In this document: positions 43,610-61,814 of the stretch, piece by piece
Layout: each line of letters starts with the position of its first letter
Numbering within the stretch: position 1 is the first letter of the stretch
DNA from: Rhodoferax sp.
GTDB taxonomy: Bacteria; Pseudomonadota; Gammaproteobacteria; Burkholderiales; Burkholderiaceae_C
Direction of reading: 5' to 3'
NCBI RefSeq assembly: GCF_012927445.1
Contig: NZ_JABBPD010000004.1
Coordinates: 372,001-436,000, forward strand
Length of the DNA: 64,000 bases
Notes under the pieces: model-generated
What the model was told of the DNA's origin: nothing
Databases searched by the model: none
What the model saw: only the letters and a program-made list of their open reading frames with translations
Made by a program: the position numbers and the translations under genes

Positions 43610-43660
43610 GACCTCTAGCCCCCGTCGATATTACGCAAGTAGCTATGAATACAATAGCAC
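43610..43660 (+). repeat. Dispersed palindromic repeat, copy 8 (over the next gene's start)
   Basis: CCTCTAGCCCCCGTCGATAT then TACGCAAGTAGCTATGAATA and CAATAGCA: close to the consensus. The ATG of the downstream gene is inside the repeat. Confidence 0.85.
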
Positions 43661-44212: not shown

Positions 44213-45952
44213 CTAAAAGCTTTCCCAATCACCGCCGTCCGCTTTGCCGGTCTGGACTGACGCTGTCAACGTCAGCTTCTTGGCGCTGTTGACAATCGGC
44301 TTGGCCTGGGACACGTTGCCGAGTTTTCTCGGGGCTTGCGCGGTCTTGGCAAGCGTGCGCTGGGGCTGCACGGGCGTACTGTGCACGGCCAAACCGCCCT
44401 GATCCTGCGCGAGCTTGAACACTGCCACCGCCTGCACCAGTTGCTGGGCCTGGGTCTTCAAGCTGTCAGCCGCAGCGGCACTTTCCTCCACCAGCGCCGC
44501 ATTCTGCTGCGTGGCCTGGTCCATCTGGGTAATGGCTTCGCCCACCTGCGCCACGCCTTGAGCTTGCTCGTTGCTGGCGGCGCTGATCTCGCCCATGATG
44601 TCGGTGACACGCCGGATGCTGCTTACCACTTCGGCCATGGTGGTGCCAGCCTGATCGACCAGCACCGTGCCCTGTTCGACACGCTCCACGCTGTCATTGA
44701 TCAGGGTCTTGATTTCCTTGGCCGCATCGGCCGAGCGGCCGGCCAGACTGCGCACCTCGGAGGCCACCACCGCAAAGCCGCGGCCCTGCTCGCCGGCACG
44801 GGCTGCTTCTACCGCCGCATTGAGCGCCAGGATGTTGGTCTGAAAGGCGATGCCGTCGATCACGCTGATGATGTCGCTGATCTTCCGCGAAGAGTCATTG
44901 ATGCCTTTCATGGTGCCGACCACTTGCGCCACCACTTCACCGCCCTGGATGGCGACGGTGGACGCACTTTGCGCCAGTTGGTTGGCCTGCTTGGCGTTGT
45001 CGGCGTTCTGGCGCACGGTGGAGCTGAGTTGCTCCATCGAGGCAGCGGTTTCTTCCAGCGCGCTGGCCTGCTCTTCGGTGCGGCCGGACAAGTCGTTGTT
45101 GCCCTGCGCAATTTGCATGGAAGCGGTGGCCACGCTTTCGGAGCCCTGACGCACCGTGCCGACCACGCGGGTCAAAGACGTTTGCATGCGTTCTACGGCA
45201 GCCACCACACTGGCTGTGTCGCCGTTGCGCACGGTCATCCGGACGCTCAGATCGCCATCGGCCACGCGGCTGACGGCATCGCACAATTCGGAAGGTTCAG
45301 CGCCCAGTGAGCGTGACAAATCACGGGTGATCAACCAGGCAATGCCCGCGCCCACAATCAGCATCAGCAGGGCCAATCCACTCATGAGTACGCCCGAAGT
45401 ATTTGCTGTTTTTGCCGCCTCCTGTGTCAGCATGTCGGCGACTTCTTTCTGCAGGGCACGCGAATCCTCGCTGGCTTTGAAAACCACGTTCTGCAAGCTG
45501 CGCACTTCGCCAGTCAGCAGTTGAACGGCTTCCGCCTTCTCGCCTTTTTCGACCAGGGCGATGACGCGATCAAGACCGCTGTTGTAGGGAATCCGATTGT
45601 CGTTAAGTATTTTCAGATACTCAAGCGCTTTGGGTTGCGTCAATGTTTTTTCAAGTTTCGCCAATGTCTCTTTATTAGCGCTCCGGAGTTCGGCAATTTT
45701 CTTCTTCTCATCATCGCGAACGGCCGGGGCGTCGCTGATGACAATGTTGCGCACCGCGCGGGCGGCGGCATTGAGGTTGTCTTTGATCTCGGTGAACTGA
45801 GCCACCTTGACCATCCGATTGCTTGCCACATCATCCAGACTGGCGGCCAGCGAGCGCATTTTCAGGGCTCCGATGATCGAAATTGCAATGCCGATCAGAA
45901 TGATCGCGCCAAAACCAAGTGTCAGGCGGGTCGAGACTTTTAAGTTATTCAT
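44213..45952 (-). CDS. Methyl-accepting chemotaxis protein with four-helix-bundle sensor and C-terminal pentapeptide
   Basis: A transmembrane chemoreceptor, 579 aa. TM1 is at 10-30, the periplasmic helical sensor (4HB-MCP type) at about 31-190, TM2 near 191-213, then a HAMP-like segment and a long cytoplasmic coiled coil with the hairpin tip [20 protein letters not shown]. The protein ends GDWESF, matching the CheR/CheB-tethering pentapeptide of E. coli receptors (NWE[TS]F). The signalling domain is almost base-for-base the same as in the receptor at 47938-49686. The ligand is unknown. Confidence 0.93.
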
Positions 45953-45984
45953 GGACTTTTTGATTTGTAAGGGTTGAGGCTGTT

Positions 45985-46207
45985 TTACGGACCGGCTTCG
46001 GCCATCAGGCCCATGTCGACCTTGGACATGAGTTGTTCGATCTCCATCAGAGTCAGCATGCGCTCTGCATCACCGCTCTTGCTAGCTCGGGATGCAATTG
46101 GGCAATCGTGTTCAGGGTGCCGGGATAGCGCACCAAATTGTGCGGTAGCCCGAGCCACTCCTCACGCGTGAAGCCGCTGAACTTGATGAAGCTGGCGATG
46201 GTCATGG
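45985..46207 (-). pseudogene. Fused remnants of an Aer-like PAS domain and a CheW C-terminus
   Basis: No intact gene lies between the two receptors, but two decayed pieces can be read on the minus strand. From 46205 downward one frame gives SFIKFSGFTREEWLGLPHNL followed by VRYPG, the PAS core of Aer-type receptors (FSGFT.EE..G.PHN.VR.P). In a different frame, down to a stop at 45985, [15 protein letters not shown] then [11 protein letters not shown] matches the end of the intact CheW at 49699 ([13 protein letters not shown]..., MGLIAETAH). The two pieces are out of frame and each is missing most of its domain. This implies that the cluster once held an Aer-like receptor and a second cheW. Confidence 0.8.
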
Positions 46208-46275
46208 ACGAGGTCGATTCCGGTTCCAAAACGCGAAAACAAGCAGACCTCTGACAAAAAATTCAAGACTTCGGT

Positions 46276-47850
46276 CTAAACCGCATCCAGTCTGAAAACA
46301 CTCACCACCTGCACCAGTTCCTGCGCCTGCGATTTGAGGCTGGAGGCCGCCGCGGCCATCTCCTCCACCAGTGCCGCATTTTGCTGTGTAGCCTGGTCCA
46401 TCTGCGTGACGGCTTCACCCACTTGGGAAACCCCGACACTCTGCTCCGAACTTGCGGCGCTGATCTCGCCCATGATGTCGGTGACGCGTCGGATGCTGCT
46501 TACCACTTCGGTCATGGTGCTGCCGGCCTGACCCACCAGGGCCGAGCCCTGCTCGACACGTTCCACGCTGGCGTTGATCAGGGTCTTGATTTCCTTAGCC
46601 GCCTCGGCCGAGCGGCCGGCCAGACTGCGCACCTCGGAGGCCACCACCGCAAAGCCACGGCCCTGCTCGCCGGCACGGGCTGCTTCCACCGCTGCATTGA
46701 GCGCCAGGATGTTGGTCTGAAAGGCAATGCCGTCGATCACGCTGATGATGTCGCTGATCTTCCGTGAGGAGTCATTGATGCCCTTCATGGTGTCAACGAC
46801 CTGGGCCACCACGGCACCGCCCTGAATGGCGACGGTGGACGCACTTTGCGCCAGCTGGTTGGCCTGTTTGGCGCTGTCGGCGTTTTGCTTGACGGTGGAA
46901 CTGAGTTGTTCCATCGAGGCGGCGGTTTCTTCCAGCGCGCTGGCCTGTTGCTCGGTACGGGCACTGAGGTCATGGTTGCCCTGCGCAATCTCGGCACTGG
47001 CGGTCGCCAAGCCATCAGCGTTCTGGCGCACGCCGCCGACGATGTGACTGAGGTTGTCGCGCATCTCCTTGAGTGCATACAGCAAGCTCGTCTGATCGTT
47101 GTTTTTCAGATTGACCGGAACCGTCAGGTCGCCCTGCGCGATGTGGCGCGTAATATTGGCCGCATATTCCGGCTCGCCGCCAAGCTGTTTCAGTAAACCG
47201 CGCGAAATCACCATGCCAATGGCAAACAAGATGGCGGCCAGTATCAGCGCGCCAATTGAAAAATCAATCAGGCGACTCAGAATCGCGGCTTCTACCGTAT
47301 CCACATACACGCCAGAGCCAATGATCCAGCCCCAGGGCGCAAATCCCTTGACGTACGACACCTTTGGCACTGGTCGATCATTGCCCGGTTTGGCCCACAT
47401 ATAGGAGACGAATCCGGCCCCGTTGGTTTTGACGGTGGCTACCATTTCCGCAAAAAAAGGCTTGCCGGTCGGATCCTTGAGATCCGACAAGTCCTTGCTT
47501 TCCATGAGTGCCTTGCTGAACGGATGCATCAGCATGCGCGGGTGCAGATCGTTGATCCAGAAATACTCGGTGCCGCTGTAACGCAAGCCCTTGATCGCTT
47601 CCAACGCCTGCTGTTGCGCCTGCGGCTCGGTGAGCGTGCCCTTGCTCGCCAGGTCGTGGTAGTAGGTCAGCAGGCCGTGGGCGGTTTCCACCACTTGTCT
47701 CACATTATTTTGCCGCTCCCCCAGAATCAGTTTTCGTTCTGAAACCAGGAACAGCGCAGTCAGTGCGACGATGCCGAGGATGGCACTGAAGGTGAACAGA
47801 CCGAGCCTTTTGCCAATACTCATGGAGCGGAGATTTTGCGGCTTTAACAT
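46276..47850 (-). CDS. Methyl-accepting chemotaxis protein with single Cache sensor domain
   Basis: A transmembrane chemoreceptor, 524 aa. TM1 lies at about 16-36 and the periplasmic sCache_2-type sensor at about 40-195, with YFWINDLHPRMLMHPFSKAL and SYVKGFAPWGWIIGSGVYVD, both typical of Cache domains binding small organic acids. TM2, HAMP and the signalling hairpin [20 protein letters not shown] follow. It ends FRLDAV and lacks the WESF tether found in its two neighbours, so it may depend on them for adaptation. The ligand is unknown. Confidence 0.93.
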   Translation of the reverse strand: MLKPQNLRSMSIGKRLGLFTFSAILGIVALTALFLVSERKLILGERQNNVRQVVETAHGLLTYYHDLASKGTLTEPQAQQQALEAIKGLRYSGTEYFWINDLHPRMLMHPFSKALMESKDLSDLKDPTGKPFFAEMVATVKTNGAGFVSYMWAKPGNDRPVPKVSYVKGFAPWGWIIGSGVYVDTVEAAILSRLIDFSIGALILAAILFAIGMVISRGLLKQLGGEPEYAANITRHIAQGDLTVPVNLKNNDQTSLLYALKEMRDNLSHIVGGVRQNADGLATASAEIAQGNHDLSARTEQQASALEETAASMEQLSSTVKQNADSAKQANQLAQSASTVAIQGGAVVAQVVDTMKGINDSSRKISDIISVIDGIAFQTNILALNAAVEAARAGEQGRGFAVVASEVRSLAGRSAEAAKEIKTLINASVERVEQGSALVGQAGSTMTEVVSSIRRVTDIMGEISAASSEQSVGVSQVGEAVTQMDQATQQNAALVEEMAAAASSLKSQAQELVQVVSVFRLDAV

Positions 47851-47937
47851 ATGCGATTCCTAATAATTGACTCTAATTATCTATACAGTTTTGGCAGCTT
47901 GGTGGATCAACCCGTGTTCACCACTGGGTGTTGTGCT

Positions 47938-49686
47938 TTAAAAGCTTTCCCACTCGTCTGCAGCAGTTTTCTTGGCAGCGGCAACGACAGCGGGAATTGC
48001 TGGCGGTAAGGCACTGGCTTTGGGCTTCAGGCGTGCCACATTACTCGCCCGGCTTGCGCCGCGTCGTTCAACTTCCGTATAAGGTTTATTAACGGGAACA
48101 GCTAAACGTGCGGCAGAGCGTGTCACCGACAAATTGCCTTGCGCGCCGTCAAAAGAGAGTTTAAACACACTCACGGTCTGCACCAGCTCCTGCGCCTGCG
48201 ATTTGAGGCTGGAGGCCGCCGCTGCCATCTCCTCCACCAATGCCGCATTCTGCTGCGTGGCCTGGTCCATCTGCGTGACGGCTTCCCCCACTTGGGATAC
48301 GCCTTGGGCTTGCTCGCTGCTGGCGGCGCTGATCTCGCCCATGATGTCGGTGACGCGCCGGATGCTGCTTACCACTTCGGCCATGGTGGTGCCAGCCCGA
48401 TCGACCAGCACCGTGCCCTGTTCGACACGCTCCACGCTGTCATTGATCAGGGTCTTGATTTCCTTGGCCGCATCGGCCGAGCGGCCGGCCAGACTGCGCA
48501 CCTCGGAGGCCACCACCGCAAAGCCGCGGCCCTGCTCGCCGGCACGCGCTGCTTCTACCGCCGCATTGAGCGCCAGGATATTGGTCTGAAAGGCGATGCC
48601 GTCGATCACGCTGATGATGTCACTGATCTTCCGCGAAGAGTCATTGATGCCTTTCATGGTGCCGACGACTTGCGCCACCACTTCACCGCCCTGGATGGCG
48701 ACGGTGGACGCACTCTGTGCCAGCTGGTTGGCCTGTTTGGCGTTGTCGGCGTTCTGACGCACGGTGGAGCTGAGTTGCTCCATCGAGGCAGCGGTTTCTT
48801 CCAGCGCGCTGGCCTGTTGTTCGGTGCGGGCACTGAGGTCGTGGTTGCCCTGCGCAATCTCGGCACTGGCGGTCGCCACACTTTCGGAGCCCTGGCGGAC
48901 GTTGGAGACAACGCTGGTCAGGTTGCCTTGCATAGTGGACAGCGCCTGAAGGAGTTGTCCAATTTCGTCTTTTCCGGCGGCACTCAAGGGGTGGCTCAGG
49001 TCACCCTCGCCAATGCGTTGCGCGGCAACACGTGCCGTATCGACGCCACGGGAAATGCTGCCCGAGAGCTGCCAACTCGTGAGGACCGCCACCACCAGGG
49101 CGACCACCAAAAGCAGTCCCCCGATCACATACAGCTGCTGGAACATGGCATTAACTTCTTGCTGCGCCGCTCGGACGCTGGCAGCTTCTCCATCCACCAG
49201 CACCTGCGTTGCACGAATGTAGTCTTCTGTGACGGGAACGAATTTGCTTTGCACCAGGGCACGGGCACCCGCGTCATCCCCGGCGGCCTTCAAGGTATTG
49301 ACCTGGTCACGGCCAGCAATCCATATCTTGCGTACCGCCCCGACATTTTCGGCGCGCTTTCTGGACTCGCTGTCTTGCACCTTGTCTAGAAAAGTCTTTT
49401 GGATTTCATTTGTCCCGCGTGATGTCGCTGCCATTGACTCCTTGAAGAAGTCGAGCATGGTTCCGCCCTCTGAATAACCGACGGCCAGAGATCGCGCGGA
49501 GTTTTGCCGCACATCACCCTGCCAGCTACCGGCCAGTTGCAGTAAATCGGCAGAACGTGCCATCCGCGTCGTGGCCTCGGATACCATTTCCACTCGCCAC
49601 GCCGTCACGCCCGTCAACAGAAGAAACACCGCGATGATCACGGCAAAACCAAGATTGAGTCGGGTGGAGATTTTCAGATTGTTCAT
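47938..49686 (-). CDS. Methyl-accepting chemotaxis protein with helical sensor and C-terminal pentapeptide
   Basis: A 582-aa chemoreceptor. TM1 is at about 10-30 and a helical periplasmic domain at about 31-185 has a sequence unlike that of the other two receptors ([20 protein letters not shown]). TM2 is followed by HAMP ([20 protein letters not shown]) and a cytoplasmic domain that is nearly identical at DNA level to that of the 44213 receptor. The end DEWESF is a second CheR/CheB tether. It starts 12 bp after cheW, so the two are co-transcribed. Confidence 0.93.
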
Positions 49687-55621: not shown

Positions 55622-56662
55622 ATGGGACTGATGGACTTCGTCAAAAAACAATTCATTGACATTATTCAGTGGACTGAAGACGTGGACGGCACGCTCGCAT
55701 GGCGTTTTCCGATGGCGGACATGGAGATCCAGAACGGCGCCCAGCTGGTGGTGCGTGCGTCGCAAATGGCGCTGTTTGTGAACGAAGGCAAGGTGGCCGA
55801 TGTGTTTGGCCCCGGCACCCACCCACTCACCACGCAGACGCTGCCGGTACTGACCTACCTGAAGAACTGGGACAAGCTGTTTGAGTCGCCGTTCAAGAGC
55901 GATGTTTATTTTTTCAGCACGCGCCAACAGGTCGACCAAAAGTGGGGCACGCCCCAGCCCATCACCATCCGCGACAAAGACTTTGGCGCGGTGCGCCTGC
56001 GCGCCTTTGGCAACTACAGTTTTCGCGTGGCCGACCCCCAGCTGTTTCACACCGAAATCTCGGGCACGCGCGATAACTATGGCGTCGGCGATCTGGACGG
56101 CCAGTTGCGCGGGCTGGTGCTGCAAAACATCAGCAACGCCATTGCCAGCAGCGGCATTCCATTCCTGGATCTGGCCTCCAACCAGTTGATGTTTGCGCAG
56201 GCGCTCTCCGCCCAGTTGTCGCCGGAGTTCGCCAAGATCGGACTCAAGCTCGATGGCATGACGGTGCAAAACCTTTCGCTGCCGGAAGAGCTGCAAAAGA
56301 TTCTCGATCAAAAAATTGGCATGGGCATGGTCGGCAACGACATGGCCAAGTTCATGCAGTACCAGACGGCGCAGGCGATCCCCAAATTTGCCGAGGGCGC
56401 GGGTTCTGGCGGCGGCATTGCGGGCGATGCCATGGGGCTGGGCGCCGGGGTGGCCTTGGGCCAGGTGCTGGCACAGAACCTGACGGCCGGGTTGCAGGGC
56501 GGCGCGGCGGCCTCAAGCACGGGCGCGACTGCGGCGCTGGGCGTGAAGGCGGAGGACGTGATGGCGACGCTGGAAAAACTCGGGGAGCTCAAAACCAAGG
56601 GCATCTTGACGCAGGAAGAGTTTGACGCAAAGAAGGCGGAATTGTTGAAAAAGTTGATTTAG
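55622..56662 (+). CDS. SPFH/band-7 domain protein with C-terminal SHOCT (YdjI-like)
   Basis: A 346-aa soluble-faced SPFH protein. The N-terminal part begins MGLMDFVKKQFIDIIQWTED, typical of the virion-core/YdjI-like SPFH group, with FNEGKVADVFGPGTH-type sequence (VNEGKVADVFGPGTHPLTTQ). A glycine/alanine-rich helical stretch is followed by a C-terminal SHOCT motif (LKTKGILTQEEFDAKKAELL). The GGAG site at 55612 supports ATG 55622. It opens a five-gene plus-strand cluster; related SPFH proteins accompany DUF4178/DUF350/PspA-type stress genes in other bacteria. It probably forms a membrane-bound oligomer. Confidence 0.9.
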   Translation: MGLMDFVKKQFIDIIQWTEDVDGTLAWRFPMADMEIQNGAQLVVRASQMALFVNEGKVADVFGPGTHPLTTQTLPVLTYLKNWDKLFESPFKSDVYFFSTRQQVDQKWGTPQPITIRDKDFGAVRLRAFGNYSFRVADPQLFHTEISGTRDNYGVGDLDGQLRGLVLQNISNAIASSGIPFLDLASNQLMFAQALSAQLSPEFAKIGLKLDGMTVQNLSLPEELQKILDQKIGMGMVGNDMAKFMQYQTAQAIPKFAEGAGSGGGIAGDAMGLGAGVALGQVLAQNLTAGLQGGAAASSTGATAALGVKAEDVMATLEKLGELKTKGILTQEEFDAKKAELLKKLI

Positions 56663-56730
56663 ATTTCTTCCTTGCTAATTTTGGTTGACGTGTTTTCTGG
56701 CGTGCTCCTGCCCCTACTCACTCCCCCCCG

Positions 56731-56762
56731 CCCCTCTCCCGCCCCGCCGGGCGGAAGAGGGG
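56731..56762 (+). other. Strong C/G hairpin between SPFH and DUF4178 genes
   Basis: cccctctcccgccc (56731-56744) pairs with gggcggaagagggg (56749-56762) with one mismatch and a cgcc loop. It may attenuate transcription or set the 3' end of the SPFH mRNA. No T tract follows. Confidence 0.5.
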
Positions 56763-56847
56763 TGCCTCATTTGGCCGCATGTGGAAGGAATGAAGTACAG
56801 GCGCAACGGCGCGTTGGTCTCGTTCAGCCTGCCCTGGTATCGACGCT

Positions 56848-58350
56848 GTGAACACCGAATCCCCCCAGCGCGCTTACCGCGCGCCTTGTCCGGGTTGTGG
56901 CGCGCCGGTTGCTTTTCTTAGTGCGCAGTCCAGCCATGCGGTGTGCGGCTATTGCCAAAGCATGGTGCTGCGCCAGGGGGAAACCTTGTCGCGCATCGGC
57001 AAAATGGCCGAGCTGTTTGACGACCACAGTCCGCTGCAACTCCAGGCCAGCGGCACCTGGAACAACAAAGCGTTCACGCTGGTCGGCCGCCTGCAATACA
57101 AGTACGCCGAGGGCAGCTGGACCGAATGGCACGCCGTGCTGGACGACGGCAGCAGTGCCTATTTGAGTGAAGACAACGGCGCCTATGTCATCAGCACGCC
57201 GTTGACACTCCAGCGCGAACTGCCGCCCGCCGAGCATTTTCGGGTCGGCGCCAGCACGGCCATCAACGGCCAAACATTTAGCGTCGCCACCAACAACCCG
57301 GTAGCATTGATGTCGGCGCAGGGCGAACTGCCGCGCTTGCCGGCGCTGGGTCAGCCCTTTGCCATGGTCGAGCTGCGCAGCCAGACGGCGGGCGAGGTGC
57401 TCAGCATTGACTACAGCACACAGCCGCCCAGTGTGTCGATCGGGCAAGCGGTGCGGCTGGAAGACCTCCAGCTGAGCGGCCTGCGCAGCGAATCGGTCAA
57501 AGATGAAAAAGGGCGCCAGTTCAACTGCCCCCACTGCGGCGCGCCGGTGGCTGCGCTGCTGGCCAGCAGCAAGAGCATCACCTGCGGCTCGTGCAACAGC
57601 CTCATTGATTTGTCGCAAGGGCTGGGCGCCGAACTCCAACACGCGCTGCAGGACGAGCCGCTGGCGCCCCTCATCCCGCTGGGCAGCCAGGGGCCGTTGC
57701 AGGGGGTACTGTGGCAGGTGGTGGGGTTTCAGCACCGCATGGGGACGGACCCGAGCGACCCCGACGAGCAGTTTGGCTGGGAAGAGTATTTGCTCTACAA
57801 CGCCGAGCGCGGCTTTACCTTTTTGGTGGATTCCAGCGAGGGCTGGAGCGTGGTCAAACCCACCACCGGTGCGCCGGTGCTGAGCGACAACGGCCAGAAT
57901 GCCACTTACCTGGGCACCCGCTACCAGCTCAAGGAGCGCTACAACGCCGAGACCTCGTATGTGGCGGGTGAGTTTTACTGGCAGGTTGCGCGCGGACAAA
58001 AAACCTCAAACCGCGACTTTGTCAACGGCAAGAACCTGCTCTCCATGGAGCAATCCGCCAATGAAGTCACCTGGTCGGTGGGCCGCCAGATCGAGAGCGA
58101 TGCCGTTGCCAAGGCTTTCAAACTGGAAGACAAAAAAGACCTGCTCCAGCGCAGTGATGCCGGTCCCGGCAGCGCGGCCCAAGGGGTCAGTTTTCGCGCT
58201 GGGCTCGTGATTTTTTTGGTGCTGATTTTGTTTCTGCTGGTGATCAGCCGCTGTTCGCGCTGTGACCCGGCGACCGAGAACTGCGCGTCGAGCTCGCGCA
58301 GTTCAGGCGGTTCGTTTGGCGGCTTCTCCAGCGGCGGCGGGCACAAATGA
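56848..58350 (+). CDS. DUF4178 protein with two zinc ribbons and a transmembrane helix
   Basis: A 500-aa protein. It opens with a zinc ribbon CPGCGAPVAFLSAQSSHAVC then GYC, followed by a DUF4178-like beta-rich segment (GRLQYKYAEGSWTEWHAVL). A second ribbon at about 227-252 (CPHCGAPVAALLASSKSITC then GSC) precedes a second DUF4178 domain (GFQHRMGTDP... WEEYLLYNAERGFTFLVDS). A single helix near the end (GLVIFLVLILFLLVISRC) and a Ser/Gly tail SGGSFGGFSSGGGHK anchor it to the membrane. The start is GTG 56848. Its role is inferred from neighbours. Confidence 0.85.
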   Translation: MNTESPQRAYRAPCPGCGAPVAFLSAQSSHAVCGYCQSMVLRQGETLSRIGKMAELFDDHSPLQLQASGTWNNKAFTLVGRLQYKYAEGSWTEWHAVLDDGSSAYLSEDNGAYVISTPLTLQRELPPAEHFRVGASTAINGQTFSVATNNPVALMSAQGELPRLPALGQPFAMVELRSQTAGEVLSIDYSTQPPSVSIGQAVRLEDLQLSGLRSESVKDEKGRQFNCPHCGAPVAALLASSKSITCGSCNSLIDLSQGLGAELQHALQDEPLAPLIPLGSQGPLQGVLWQVVGFQHRMGTDPSDPDEQFGWEEYLLYNAERGFTFLVDSSEGWSVVKPTTGAPVLSDNGQNATYLGTRYQLKERYNAETSYVAGEFYWQVARGQKTSNRDFVNGKNLLSMEQSANEVTWSVGRQIESDAVAKAFKLEDKKDLLQRSDAGPGSAAQGVSFRAGLVIFLVLILFLLVISRCSRCDPATENCASSSRSSGGSFGGFSSGGGHK

Positions 58351-58441
58351 CACAGGGCCGATTGAAGAAAAAAAGTAGCTGCCCGCCTTCGCGGGACAGC
58401 GCAATATTGACATTCCGGCAACATTTTTGAAGGAGATCCGC

Positions 58442-58663
58442 ATGGAGATGGAATGGTTGAAATCGGGGGCTTTATTGGGCTCCCTCTTGTTTGCGCTGAT
58501 GGGCGTGATTATTTTTCTGGTGACTTTCATCATCATTGACAAGCTCACGCCCTACAACCTGTGGGAAGAAATTGTCGAGAAGCAAAACCGGGCGCTGGCG
58601 CTGGTGGTGGCGGCCATGTCGCTGGGCATCTGCATCATCGTGGCCGCGGCGATTCACGGGTGA
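58442..58663 (+). CDS. DUF350 (UPF0719) small membrane protein
   Basis: A 73-aa protein with two hydrophobic helices (LLGSLLFALMGVIIFLVTFI; LALVVAAMSLGICIIVAAAI) and LTPYNLWEEIVEKQNRALA between them, the DUF350 pattern. ATG 58442 follows GGAGATCC. Its last codons overlap the next gene as GTGA. DUF350 proteins travel with SPFH, DUF4178 and SpeE-like genes elsewhere; channel activity has been suspected, not shown. Confidence 0.9.
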   Translation: MEMEWLKSGALLGSLLFALMGVIIFLVTFIIIDKLTPYNLWEEIVEKQNRALALVVAAMSLGICIIVAAAIHG

Positions 58664-60216
58664 GCCCGGAAGATCAAACCGGGCCGCGCCCGGTTGAAGT
58701 GGCCCTGCTCGCCTCGGTCTTCATCGTCTCGGCCTGCGGGTTGGTGTATGAGCTGGCCGCCGGGGCGCTGGCGTCGTACCTGCTGGGCGACTCGGTGTTG
58801 CAGTTCTCCACCGTCATCGGCACCTACCTGTTTGCCATGGGGATGGGCTCCTACCTGTCGCGCTTTTTCGAGCGCCAGCTGCCGGCCCATTTTTTACGGA
58901 TAGAACTGCTGGTCGCGCTGATCGGCGGCGCGTTACCCGCGCTGCTTTTTGTCGCCAATGCCTGGTTGCCGGGCTCCTTCCGGTTGCTGCTTTACACGCT
59001 GGTGATGGGCGTGGGCACGCTGGTCGGGCTGGAGATTCCGCTGGTCATGCGCATTCTCAAACGCAACGTGGCGCTCAAAGATCTGGTGTCGCAAGTGCTG
59101 ACCTTTGACTACCTCGGCGCGCTGGCGGTGTCGCTCGCCTTCCCGCTAGTGCTGGTGCCCCAGCTGGGGCTGATCCGCACCGGCTTGCTGTTTGGACTGA
59201 TGAATGCGGCGGTGGCCTTGTGGGCGCTGTGGCTGTTTCGCCATGAGTTGCGCCAGTTCCGGGCGCACGCTTTGGCCTGTGTCGCCACGCTGGGCGTGCT
59301 GGCAGGCGGCATGGCGGCGGCCGATCAGGTCACGAGCTGGGCCGAAGACAAGATGTACCAGGACCATGTGGTGTTTGCCAGCACCTCGCCCTACCAGCGC
59401 ATCGTGGTGACCTACGGCGGCGGTGAAGGCCGGGCCGGTTACCGGCTGTTTTTAAACGGCAATCTGCAGTTTGCCCAGCGCGACGAGTACCGCTACCACG
59501 AGGCGCTGGTGCACCCGGTGATGGCGGCCTATTCGGCCACCGGAGCGGCGCCCAAAAAAGTCGCGGTGCTGGGCGGTGGCGACGGCATGGCGGTGCGAGA
59601 AATCCTCAAGTACCCCGGTGTGGAAAGCGTCACGCTGGTCGAACTGGACCCGGCCATGACCCGCTTGTTCTCCCAGCAGCCGGTGCTGGTGAAGCTCAAC
59701 GGCGGCGCCTTGCAATCGCCCAAAGTCAAGATCATCAACACCGATGCGTTCAGCTGGCTGGAAAACAGCACCGAGATGTTTGACGTGCTCGTGGTGGACT
59801 TTCCCGACCCCACTAATTTCTCCATCGGCAAGCTCTATACCACCGCGTTTTATGCCCTGCTCGACAAGCATCTGGCGGCCAGCGGCTATGCCGTGATCCA
59901 GACCACGTCGCCCCTGGTGGCACGCCAGAGTTTCTGGACCGTGGTGCACACCATCGAGTCGATCGGACTGAGCGCCACCCCCTACCACGCCCATGTGCCC
60001 AGCTTTGGCGAGTGGGGCTACGTGGTCGCCAGCCGGCGCCCGTACCGGCTGCCCACCGCGCTGCCTGACGGCCTGCGCTTTTTGACGCCGCACAGCCTGC
60101 CCGCCTTGTTTGATTTCCCGCTCGACATGGCGCGGCGGCCGACCGAGGTCAACCGCCTGTCGAACCAGGTGCTGGTGACGACCTATGAAGCCGAGTGGGG
60201 CAAGGTGGCGCGTTAA
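58660..60216 (+). CDS. Membrane-fused spermidine synthase-like aminopropyltransferase
   Basis: A 518-aa protein joining about seven N-terminal membrane helices (SACGLVYELAAGALASYLLG; FSTVIGTYLFAMGMGSYLSR) to a C-terminal SpeE fold with the SAM-type motif VLGGGDGMAVREILKYPGVE, VELDPAMTRLFS and VVDFPDPTNFSIGKLYTTAF. The aspartates D..D of spermidine synthase are present, so aminopropyl transfer from decarboxylated SAM is plausible, but the membrane fusion and context suggest a modified substrate. The start is GTG 58660 overlapping the DUF350 stop (GTGA). Confidence 0.92.
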   Translation: MSPEDQTGPRPVEVALLASVFIVSACGLVYELAAGALASYLLGDSVLQFSTVIGTYLFAMGMGSYLSRFFERQLPAHFLRIELLVALIGGALPALLFVANAWLPGSFRLLLYTLVMGVGTLVGLEIPLVMRILKRNVALKDLVSQVLTFDYLGALAVSLAFPLVLVPQLGLIRTGLLFGLMNAAVALWALWLFRHELRQFRAHALACVATLGVLAGGMAAADQVTSWAEDKMYQDHVVFASTSPYQRIVVTYGGGEGRAGYRLFLNGNLQFAQRDEYRYHEALVHPVMAAYSATGAAPKKVAVLGGGDGMAVREILKYPGVESVTLVELDPAMTRLFSQQPVLVKLNGGALQSPKVKIINTDAFSWLENSTEMFDVLVVDFPDPTNFSIGKLYTTAFYALLDKHLAASGYAVIQTTSPLVARQSFWTVVHTIESIGLSATPYHAHVPSFGEWGYVVASRRPYRLPTALPDGLRFLTPHSLPALFDFPLDMARRPTEVNRLSNQVLVTTYEAEWGKVAR

Positions 60217-61814
60217 TGCAGCGGCGCCACTTTCTTGCCAGCGCGGCCCTGCCGCTGATCGGCTGCGCCCAAGCGGACGACATCAGCGGCAGCTTCACCG
60301 GCATCAACCTTGCGCGCGGCCACCTGCTGCGGGACCGCCAATCGTGGCCCGCACCTGCCGTCATGCGCAAAACCGACGTACTGATCCTCGGTGGCGGCGT
60401 CGCCGGACTGGCGGCAGCGCGTGCCTTGCGCCTCCAGGGCAGGCAAGACTTCGCCTTGCTGGAACTGGAAGACGCCGCTGGGGGCAACAGCCGGGGCGGC
60501 ACGGTGAACGGCATTGCCTGTCCCCTGGGCGCCCACTACCTGCCGGTGCCGGGCGATGCGGCTCCCGAGGTGCAGGACTTGCTCGAAGAACTGGGCTTGC
60601 GTCGGCGTGTGTCGGGCCGCTGGGAATATGACGAGCGCCACCTGTGCCACAGCCCGCAAGAGCGCCTGTTCTTTAACGGCGCCTGGCAGGACGGGCTGCT
60701 GCCGGTGCAAGGCGTCAGCCGTGACACGCTGGCGCAATACCAAAAATTTGCGGCCTTGGTGGAACAAGCCCGCAGCGCCGCCCGCTGGACGATTCCAGCA
60801 TCAAAACAGCCTCTAGCCCCCGTTCAGACTGCGCTAATAGCTATTACTTTCATAGCATATTTAAACCAAAACGGTCTCACCGATCCGCATCTGCGCTGGT
60901 ACCTGAACTACTGCTGCCGTGACGATTTTGGCGCCGGCATCGCCACCGTGTCGGCCTGGGCCGGCATTCACTACTTTGCCAGCCGCCACGGCTTTCACCT
61001 CCCAGGCACCGAGTCGGTGGAGCGCGAAGGCGTGCTGACCTGGCCGCAAGGCAACGGCTGGCTCACCGAACGCCTGGCCGCGCCGCTGCAAGAGCGCCTA
61101 CACACCGGACGCGTGGTACTGCGCATCGCCAGCGTCAAGCATGGCGTCGAGGTGGACGCCTTCAACACGACGACGCAAACCGTGGAGCGCTGGCAAGCCC
61201 GGCGCGCCATCGTGGCGCTGCCGATTTTTGTGGCGGCCCGGGTGCTGCAAAACGCGCCCGATTTTCTGCGTCAGGCGGCTGCCCGCACCCACTACGCGCC
61301 CTGGCTGGTGGCCAATATCCACCTCAAAACCCCGCTGCATGACCGCCCCGGCCCCGCGCCGAGTTGGGACAACGTGCTGTACGACGCGCCAGGGTTGGGC
61401 TATGTCGACGCCCTGCACCAAAGCCTGAAGCCGGTGCCAGGCGCCACGGTGCTGACCTACTACCGCGCGCTGGGTGATGTGCCGGGCGGCCCCAACGCGG
61501 GTCGCCGCCAACTGCTTGAAAAGCCCTGGAGTGCCTGGCGCGATGACATCCTGGCCGAACTGGCCGTCGCCCATCCCGATTTGCCGGCCAAGGCCACCCG
61601 CATCGACATCACGCGCTACGGCCATGCCATGGCCATCCCGGTGCCGCGTGATTTAAGTCAAATAGAGCTGCAGCCCCCGTCTATTATGCGCAAGAAGCTA
61701 TTAAATTCAGAGCAAATAAAGCTGACTCACGACAAGCTGACATTTGCCCACAGCGACTGGGCCGGCTACTCGGTCTTTGAAGAAGCCTTCACACTGGGGC
61801 ATCTGGCGGCGTGA
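60216..61814 (+). CDS. FAD-dependent amine-oxidase-like oxidoreductase with Tat/lipoprotein leader
   Basis: A 532-aa flavoprotein. The leader MQRRHFLASAALPLIGC combines a twin-arginine pair with a lipobox (LIGC), so it is probably exported folded and lipid-anchored. The FAD motif DVLILGGGVAGLAAARALRL follows at residue 54 with EDAAGGNSRGGTVNG, as in amine/protoporphyrinogen oxidases. Two dispersed repeats are translated in frame, at residues about 198-217 and 481-498. It overlaps the SpeE-like stop by TAATG. A polyamine-oxidase-like activity would fit its neighbour, but no substrate residue is diagnostic. Confidence 0.88.
   Translation: MQRRHFLASAALPLIGCAQADDISGSFTGINLARGHLLRDRQSWPAPAVMRKTDVLILGGGVAGLAAARALRLQGRQDFALLELEDAAGGNSRGGTVNGIACPLGAHYLPVPGDAAPEVQDLLEELGLRRRVSGRWEYDERHLCHSPQERLFFNGAWQDGLLPVQGVSRDTLAQYQKFAALVEQARSAARWTIPASKQPLAPVQTALIAITFIAYLNQNGLTDPHLRWYLNYCCRDDFGAGIATVSAWAGIHYFASRHGFHLPGTESVEREGVLTWPQGNGWLTERLAAPLQERLHTGRVVLRIASVKHGVEVDAFNTTTQTVERWQARRAIVALPIFVAARVLQNAPDFLRQAAARTHYAPWLVANIHLKTPLHDRPGPAPSWDNVLYDAPGLGYVDALHQSLKPVPGATVLTYYRALGDVPGGPNAGRRQLLEKPWSAWRDDILAELAVAHPDLPAKATRIDITRYGHAMAIPVPRDLSQIELQPPSIMRKKLLNSEQIKLTHDKLTFAHSDWAGYSVFEEAFTLGHLAA
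60809..60861 (+). repeat. Dispersed palindromic repeat, copy 9 (inside the FAD gene)
   Basis: CCTCTAGCCCCCGTTCAGAC then TGCGCTAATAGCTATTACTT and TCATAGCA; translated as PLAPVQTALIAITFIAYL without frameshift. Confidence 0.85.
61661..61712 (+). repeat. Dispersed palindromic repeat, copy 10 (inside the FAD gene)
   Basis: GCTGCAGCCCCCGTCTATTA then TGCGCAAGAAGCTATTAAAT; translated as LQPPSIMRKKLLNS. It retains the GCGCAAGAAGCTAT core exactly. Confidence 0.85.

Follow-up and report, generated by a model that had tools for sequence, protein, structure and literature searches.

A predicted membrane-fused aminopropyltransferase and its exported flavoenzyme partner in Rhodoferax: a conserved gene set and a possible polyamine module at the membrane surface

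What does a polyamine aminopropyltransferase do when it is fused to a membrane domain, and which partners does it work with? The substrate and the role of the transmembrane SpeE (TM-SpeE) family are unsettled as far as we found in the literature. A stretch of 64,000 nucleotides of Rhodoferax sp. (assembly GCF_012927445.1, contig NZ_JABBPD010000004.1, positions 372,001 to 436,000; the window) encodes such an enzyme within five plus-strand genes at window positions 55622-61814, namely those for an SPFH protein, a DUF4178 protein, a DUF350 protein, TM-SpeE, and a flavoenzyme (Table 1). A sequence-only reading had described five consecutive genes of which the last three are joined by overlaps, and the coordinates bear this out: DUF350 and TM-SpeE overlap by GTGA (58660-58663) and TM-SpeE and the flavoenzyme by TAATG (60214-60218), whereas gaps of 185 and 91 bases separate SPFH from DUF4178 and DUF4178 from DUF350. 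Scans for promoters (2 sites, 1.4 expected) and terminator-like sites (13, 8.0 expected) were uninformative. The gene set is wider than these five genes, because speD, the gene of S-adenosylmethionine (SAM) decarboxylase (PF02675, 92 bits), also belongs to it. It is encoded at L007:10954-11343 on the other strand, 4.1 kb beyond the flavoenzyme and 2 kb beyond the window end. We give an even chance to the explanation that SpeD, TM-SpeE, and an exported flavoenzyme of the spermidine dehydrogenase type form, with DUF350, DUF4178, and SPFH, a polyamine module at the membrane surface.

The operon is real, conserved, and of a kind already published (Ravi et al. 2024, PMC11237479). TM-SpeE was found above the cut-off in 53 of 300 genomes of the order, and the flavoenzyme (E <=1e-60) in 52 of these 53 and in none of the other 247. 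The one TM-SpeE genome lacking it, G150, is assembled into about 680 contigs, and its TM-SpeE gene is close to a contig edge. Eight of the 52 genomes have the two genes either separated by at least some 20 kb or on separate contigs. Among 52 order loci (our own and 51 others, mostly 20 kb in length) 44 contain the flavoenzyme, 46 DUF350, 45 DUF4178, 34 SPFH, and 32 speD. The named loci are the best 80 of 561 and thus biased toward close kin. The nearest of these is a Rhodoferax metagenome-assembled genome with 89% SpeE identity, although records very near to the window might have been excluded; the genome of the window is itself Comamonadaceae-like. The 59 of the 80 that are longer than 20 kb contain, within about 10 kb of SpeE, the flavoenzyme in 57, DUF4178 and DUF350 in 56 each, SPFH in 51, and SpeD in 21 cases, so that the proposed association of membrane-fused SpeE with DUF350 holds in relatives and the grouping exceeds what chance would give. 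Two layouts recur. Either speD, DUF4178, SPFH, and DUF350 are co-directional and face SpeE and the flavoenzyme on the opposite strand, or SPFH, DUF4178, DUF350, SpeE, and the flavoenzyme are co-directional with speD on either strand; on a Novosphingobium plasmid the entire run is co-directional. All six profiles are also matched by a Burkholderia cenocepacia replicon and by a Gemmatirosa plasmid from another phylum. The distances correlate over 43 loci (SpeE with flavoenzyme 0.87, SpeE with DUF4178 0.73), which shared ancestry alone could yield, and none of the eight listed clusters of further neighbours is found in more than 11 of the 52 loci.

The wider sample of the phylum comprises 299 genomes, of which 36 have TM-SpeE and 11 the flavoenzyme. 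These 11 are all among the 36, but the samples overlap and just two of the 11 are from outside the order. Of 28 further TM-SpeE loci of the phylum, 23 have DUF350 nearby, 10 SpeD, 8 DUF4178, and 2 the flavoenzyme; the partner profiles were built from order loci, and distant partners may escape detection. Because of this difference between the phylum and the order, DUF350 and TM-SpeE look like an old core, with DUF350 as the oldest partner, which the flavoenzyme seems to have joined later and, within the order, to have always kept.

SpeD is encoded in 52 of the 53 order genomes with TM-SpeE and in 54 of the 247 without. Of the latter 54, 52 encode a soluble SpeE, defined as an NF002956 match that falls short of the cut-off but has an E-value no weaker than about 6e-36 in a listing that extends to weaker ones, and SpeD is found in only two of the 192 genomes with neither kind of SpeE. 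Soluble SpeE is also present in six of the 53 TM-SpeE genomes. Given this company, TM-SpeE is predicted to be an aminopropyltransferase using decarboxylated SAM (dcSAM). With 676 bits it exceeds the curated cut-off of NF002956 / PRK03612 (472 bits), and from its model, compared with solved structures, and from the alignment it has the fold of an aminopropyltransferase and retains the residues of the donor and acceptor sites. The donor-site aspartate D308 and the DxxDP motif are conserved in all 161 alignment rows (one of which, P0004, duplicates the L007 gene; 50 of the 80 named SpeE were taken into alignment A3), and the acceptor pocket is similar to that of enzymes acting on free polyamines. 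A loss of these residues, named beforehand as fatal to the polyamine proposal, is therefore not seen. The genome contains three more SpeE-like genes, which score 49-63 bits against PF01564, at G000:C2:146940-148063 and C4:292196-292564; two of the three stand in tandem.

The flavoenzyme had been proposed to sit lipid-anchored on the outer face, and its export is borne out. Twin-arginine translocation (Tat) lipoprotein signals consist of an RR motif, a hydrophobic stretch, and a lipobox cysteine, and the flavoenzyme has all three. In alignment A2, R3 and C17 are found in 48 and R4 in 47 of 48 rows, and in the alignment of 118 rows (P0005 again duplicating the L007 gene) RR is present in 115 and the cysteine in 108. 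A2 takes 47 of the 53 flavoenzymes with a called start, the other named loci having merged reading frames or motif variants outside the pattern; the lipobox pattern is matched by 49 of the 53 N-termini. Going by the signal the family is thus mostly lipid-anchored. The label oxidase does not fit as well. Amine oxidases of the monoamine oxidase (MAO) and polyamine oxidase types, which use O2, have a lysine near the flavin. The only A2 column in which lysine is the commonest residue has it in 9 of 48 rows. Instead, residues 24-532 of the model align to chain residues 39-616 of the Pseudomonas spermidine dehydrogenase SpdH, including its N-terminal extension. The flavoenzyme therefore looks nearer to a spermidine dehydrogenase than to an O2-using oxidase and may, judging from its invariant histidines, perhaps hold heme b.

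The gene set, its co-occurrence, the intact SpeE motifs, and the export signal can be read directly from the sequences, and from these we infer the acceptor, the product, the heme, the electron route, and the roles of SPFH, DUF4178, and DUF350. SpeD, just beyond the window, would decarboxylate SAM, and the membrane-fused SpeE would move the aminopropyl group onto an amine acceptor. At the outer surface of the inner membrane, the exported flavoenzyme would oxidise this product or some polyamine made from it, and the electrons would go from FAD, probably via heme b, into the respiratory chain. Of the other proteins, DUF350 would be the oldest partner of the synthase, and DUF4178 and SPFH would be further membrane partners. 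If so, the obligate exported partner would be a direct route to the product of TM-SpeE.

Several results weigh against this polyamine module. The order counts span 15 family labels and are uncorrected for ancestry, and the flavoenzyme is missing from 25 of the 36 TM-SpeE genomes of the phylum. SpeD is found in 27 of these 36 and is missing in nine, and in Corynebacterium glutamicum, used as a control, TM-SpeE is present but PF02675 has no match; the use of dcSAM is therefore not general for the TM-SpeE family. A putrescine source was not found with PF02784 (PF01276 was not searched), because the only two matches in the genome resemble, by eye, a diaminopimelate decarboxylase and a gene adjoining an AMP-dependent ligase. 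The fold scores of putrescine oxidase and MAO equal or exceed that of SpdH. SpdH is absent from the seven matches of one sequence search and from the 60 of 116 matches listed in another, and no SpdH sequence for aligning its heme ligands with the invariant His36 and His470 was obtained with an N-terminal piece (no match), with a C-terminal profile (13 matches), or among the distant flavoenzymes of 16 genomes. As to the genomes without SpeD, the TM-SpeE loci L173, L174, L183, L185-L190, L193, and L194 are mostly from such genomes, including L194, and many retain DUF350 beside SpeE; L188 and L189 are from genomes with SpeD elsewhere. Li et al. 2019 are said to have described a polyamine-independent AdoMet decarboxylase.

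On which side of the membrane would TM-SpeE act? Its loops 2-3, 4-5, and 6-7 bear lysine or arginine while loops 1-2 and 3-4 are nearly free of them, and the same bias holds in 160 of 160 homologues. By the positive-inside rule positively charged loops are cytosolic, which places the N-terminus inside, and with seven spans the SpeE domain would therefore be outside. In hydrophobicity, helix 7 is about equal to helices 5 and 6 (medians of 1.80, 1.85, and 1.77 in 51 rows) and exceeds helix 2 (1.34), and over 160 rows its median is 1.88, with values above 1.6 in 141 and uncharged runs of 20 residues in the median and 15 at minimum. Cysteine is rare in the SpeE domain (36 in 38,218 residues of 161 rows, 126 of them cysteine-free) compared to 40 soluble SpeE (100 in 9,351). 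However, the presumably cytosolic SPFH partner has 0.021% cysteine with 90 of 96 proteins free of it, the exported flavoenzyme has 1.0%, and 27 of 155 cytosolic-like genes compared to 16 of 45 secreted-like genes are cysteine-free over 235 residues, so that the cysteine content points only weakly to the outside. In near absence of cysteine the SPFH partner resembles the SpeE domain, and the flavoenzyme is unlike both. Against an outside placement, dcSAM originates in the cytosol, and helix 7 may merely lie on the membrane. The topology thus favours a SpeE domain that faces outward and the origin of dcSAM one that faces inward; we rate the outside placement as somewhat less likely than not. If it is right, TM-SpeE would be an extracytoplasmic aminopropyltransferase with its catalytic domain in the periplasm. 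Its seven-helix domain would convey dcSAM (or the amine) to the outside, and the synthase would work there, at the outer surface of the inner membrane, together with a heme-flavin dehydrogenase. This would mean a SAM-type enzyme at work in the periplasm and would require the export of dcSAM; an outward-facing synthase would be very unusual for enzymes of this kind.

In the layout of the sequence-only reading, the SpeE domain would sit in the cytosol, with the helices as its anchor or as an exporter of what it makes, and the product would be oxidised outside by the flavoenzyme; this could equally well be right or wrong. Soluble SpeE enzymes are cytosolic, SpeD makes dcSAM in the same compartment, and the conserved acidic residues E31, E125, and D150 of the membrane domain would fit a cation path, whereas the inside N-terminus and the hydrophobic seventh span would carry the domain out. 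The claimed separation of the oxidase from the synthase is therefore doubtful, since by the predicted topology the SpeE domain would face outward as well.

It is rather unlikely that a membrane lipid or an envelope protein, instead of a free amine, receives the aminopropyl group from the synthase in an envelope-stress response, with the flavoenzyme editing the modified group. This would follow the idea of Ravi et al. (as far as PMC11237479 was available) and would suit the membrane fusion, the SPFH and DUF350 partners, and the phage-shock linkage known for relatives, but the SpeE pocket is like that of free-polyamine enzymes, and no phage-shock family is among the 11 neighbours scanned. Still less probable is that the flavoenzyme merely travels with TM-SpeE as a separate scavenger of outside polyamines: it covers just part of the TM-SpeE range, and Pseudomonas spermidine dehydrogenase, in the published account available in part, functions in polyamine catabolism, but no order genome has the flavoenzyme without TM-SpeE, and it is kept even when unlinked. 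That the SpeE domain is another SAM-dependent enzyme of the same fold, e.g. a methyltransferase, might explain the TM-SpeE genomes without PF02675 SpeD but is improbable given the invariant D308 and DxxDP and the near-constant SpeD of the order.

Concerning the smaller partners, the translation of the DUF4178 protein contains two CxxC...CxxC pairs, in agreement with the double zinc ribbon noticed before, and a hydrophobic segment close to the C-terminus. SPFH relatives share the same MGL.. start, and the genome has no second match to DUF350. In the interval from the flavoenzyme to speD, three minus-strand genes (window 62206 to ~65471, L007:7206-10471) match NsnA, NsnB, and NsnC of PADLOC (386, 345, and 382 bits) and are probably a phage-defence set. 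Copies of an interspersed repeat are located at 60810-60857, 61667-61714, and 43612-43659. The first two are inside the flavoenzyme gene and read through in frame, the first causing no clear length change compared to relatives. The repeat consists of constant flanks surrounding a variable core, CTAGCCCCCGT-N7-GCGCAA, with 49 exact copies in the genome (control 0) and 48 distinct 7-base cores among them. At 44213-49686, adjoining a CheW gene, three similar minus-strand genes stand in tandem (80-92% over stretches of 300 bases, at spacings of 1877 and 1869), which are probably chemoreceptors.

Table 1. Coordinates of the five genes and of features within them (window positions)
Feature	Position	Strand	Basis
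SPFH (Band_7_1) protein with C-terminal SHOCT, 346 aa	55622..56662	+	Pfam: Band_7_1 257 bits, SHOCT 34 bits; translation
DUF4178 protein, 500 aa	56848..58350	+	Pfam 109 bits; translation
DUF350 protein, 73 aa, half-length	58442..58663	+	Pfam 55 bits, model positions 5-66 of 133
TM-SpeE, predicted membrane-fused polyamine aminopropyltransferase, 518 aa	58660..60216	+	NF002956 676 bits
TM-SpeE, seven predicted helices, residues 11-232	58690..59355	+	model; loop charges and hydrophobicity
TM-SpeE, SpeE catalytic domain, residues 233-500	59356..60159	+	model compared with solved structures
TM-SpeE, DFPDP active-site motif, residues 380-384	59797..59811	+	D380, D383, P384 in 161/161 rows
Tat-exported FAD enzyme, amine oxidoreductase fold, 532 aa	60216..61814	+	PF01593 70 bits; fold comparison; signal motifs
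FAD enzyme, twin-arginine signal and lipobox to Cys17	60216..60266	+	alignment
FAD enzyme, GHxLR motif, invariant His36 (candidate heme ligand)	60318..60332	+	alignment; role inferred
FAD enzyme, RYGHAM motif, invariant His470 (candidate heme ligand)	61614..61631	+	alignment; role inferred

Among known enzymes, TM-SpeE is closest to the triamine/agmatine aminopropyltransferase of Thermus thermophilus (3anx, 1uir) and to the thermospermine synthase of Medicago (6bq2), from which it differs by the seven-helix membrane fusion and by its activity being predicted. Pseudomonas aeruginosa SpdH (7d9f-7d9j) binds heme b by His54 and His562, for which His36 and His470 are the candidates here; the flavoenzyme differs in carrying a Tat lipoprotein signal, and its heme is putative. 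The bacterial spermidine dehydrogenase clade ranges from 30 to 75% in sequence identity/similarity (PMC7576179, available in part), and the flavoenzyme, with 16-17% identity to SpdH in fold alignments, has no such clear similarity. From Rhodococcus putrescine oxidase (2yg3-2yg7) and human MAO the flavoenzyme family differs by having no conserved lysine column, by its export, and by an extra N-terminal segment. An open-licence full-text search for membrane-bound, periplasmic, or extracytoplasmic aminopropyltransferases or spermidine synthases gave matches via the gene name Rv2601 only, and in the available part of PMC11107197 'membrane' is present only within the reference list. The operons of Ravi et al. 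2024, in the available part of PMC11237479, combine 7TM-SpeE, DUF350, and DUF4178, to which one variant adds band-7-SHOCT, an AdoMet decarboxylase, and a polyamine oxidase. They are proposed to tie polyamines or aminopropylation to membrane dynamics. The locus described here has the same core genes. These operons may carry PspA or the CesT/Tir dyad, though not in all variants, and neither was found among the five genes and the 11 neighbours scanned (the whole genome was not searched). Phage-shock linkage was rejected for this lineage, as none of the scanned neighbours is of such a family; upstream genes of seven relatives were inspected by eye only. The statement that SPFH, DUF4178, DUF350, and SpeE genes recur together is thus confirmed, while their nearness to phage-shock genes applies to those published relatives and not to the neighbours scanned here. 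The available part of Ravi et al. makes no mention of an oxidase export signal, an obligate pairing with TM-SpeE, a heme-type relative, or the side of the SpeE domain. To the published kind, the present locus adds a dehydrogenase-like partner that is exported and that no searched genome has in the absence of TM-SpeE, and a topology that may put the aminopropyltransferase outside the cytosol.
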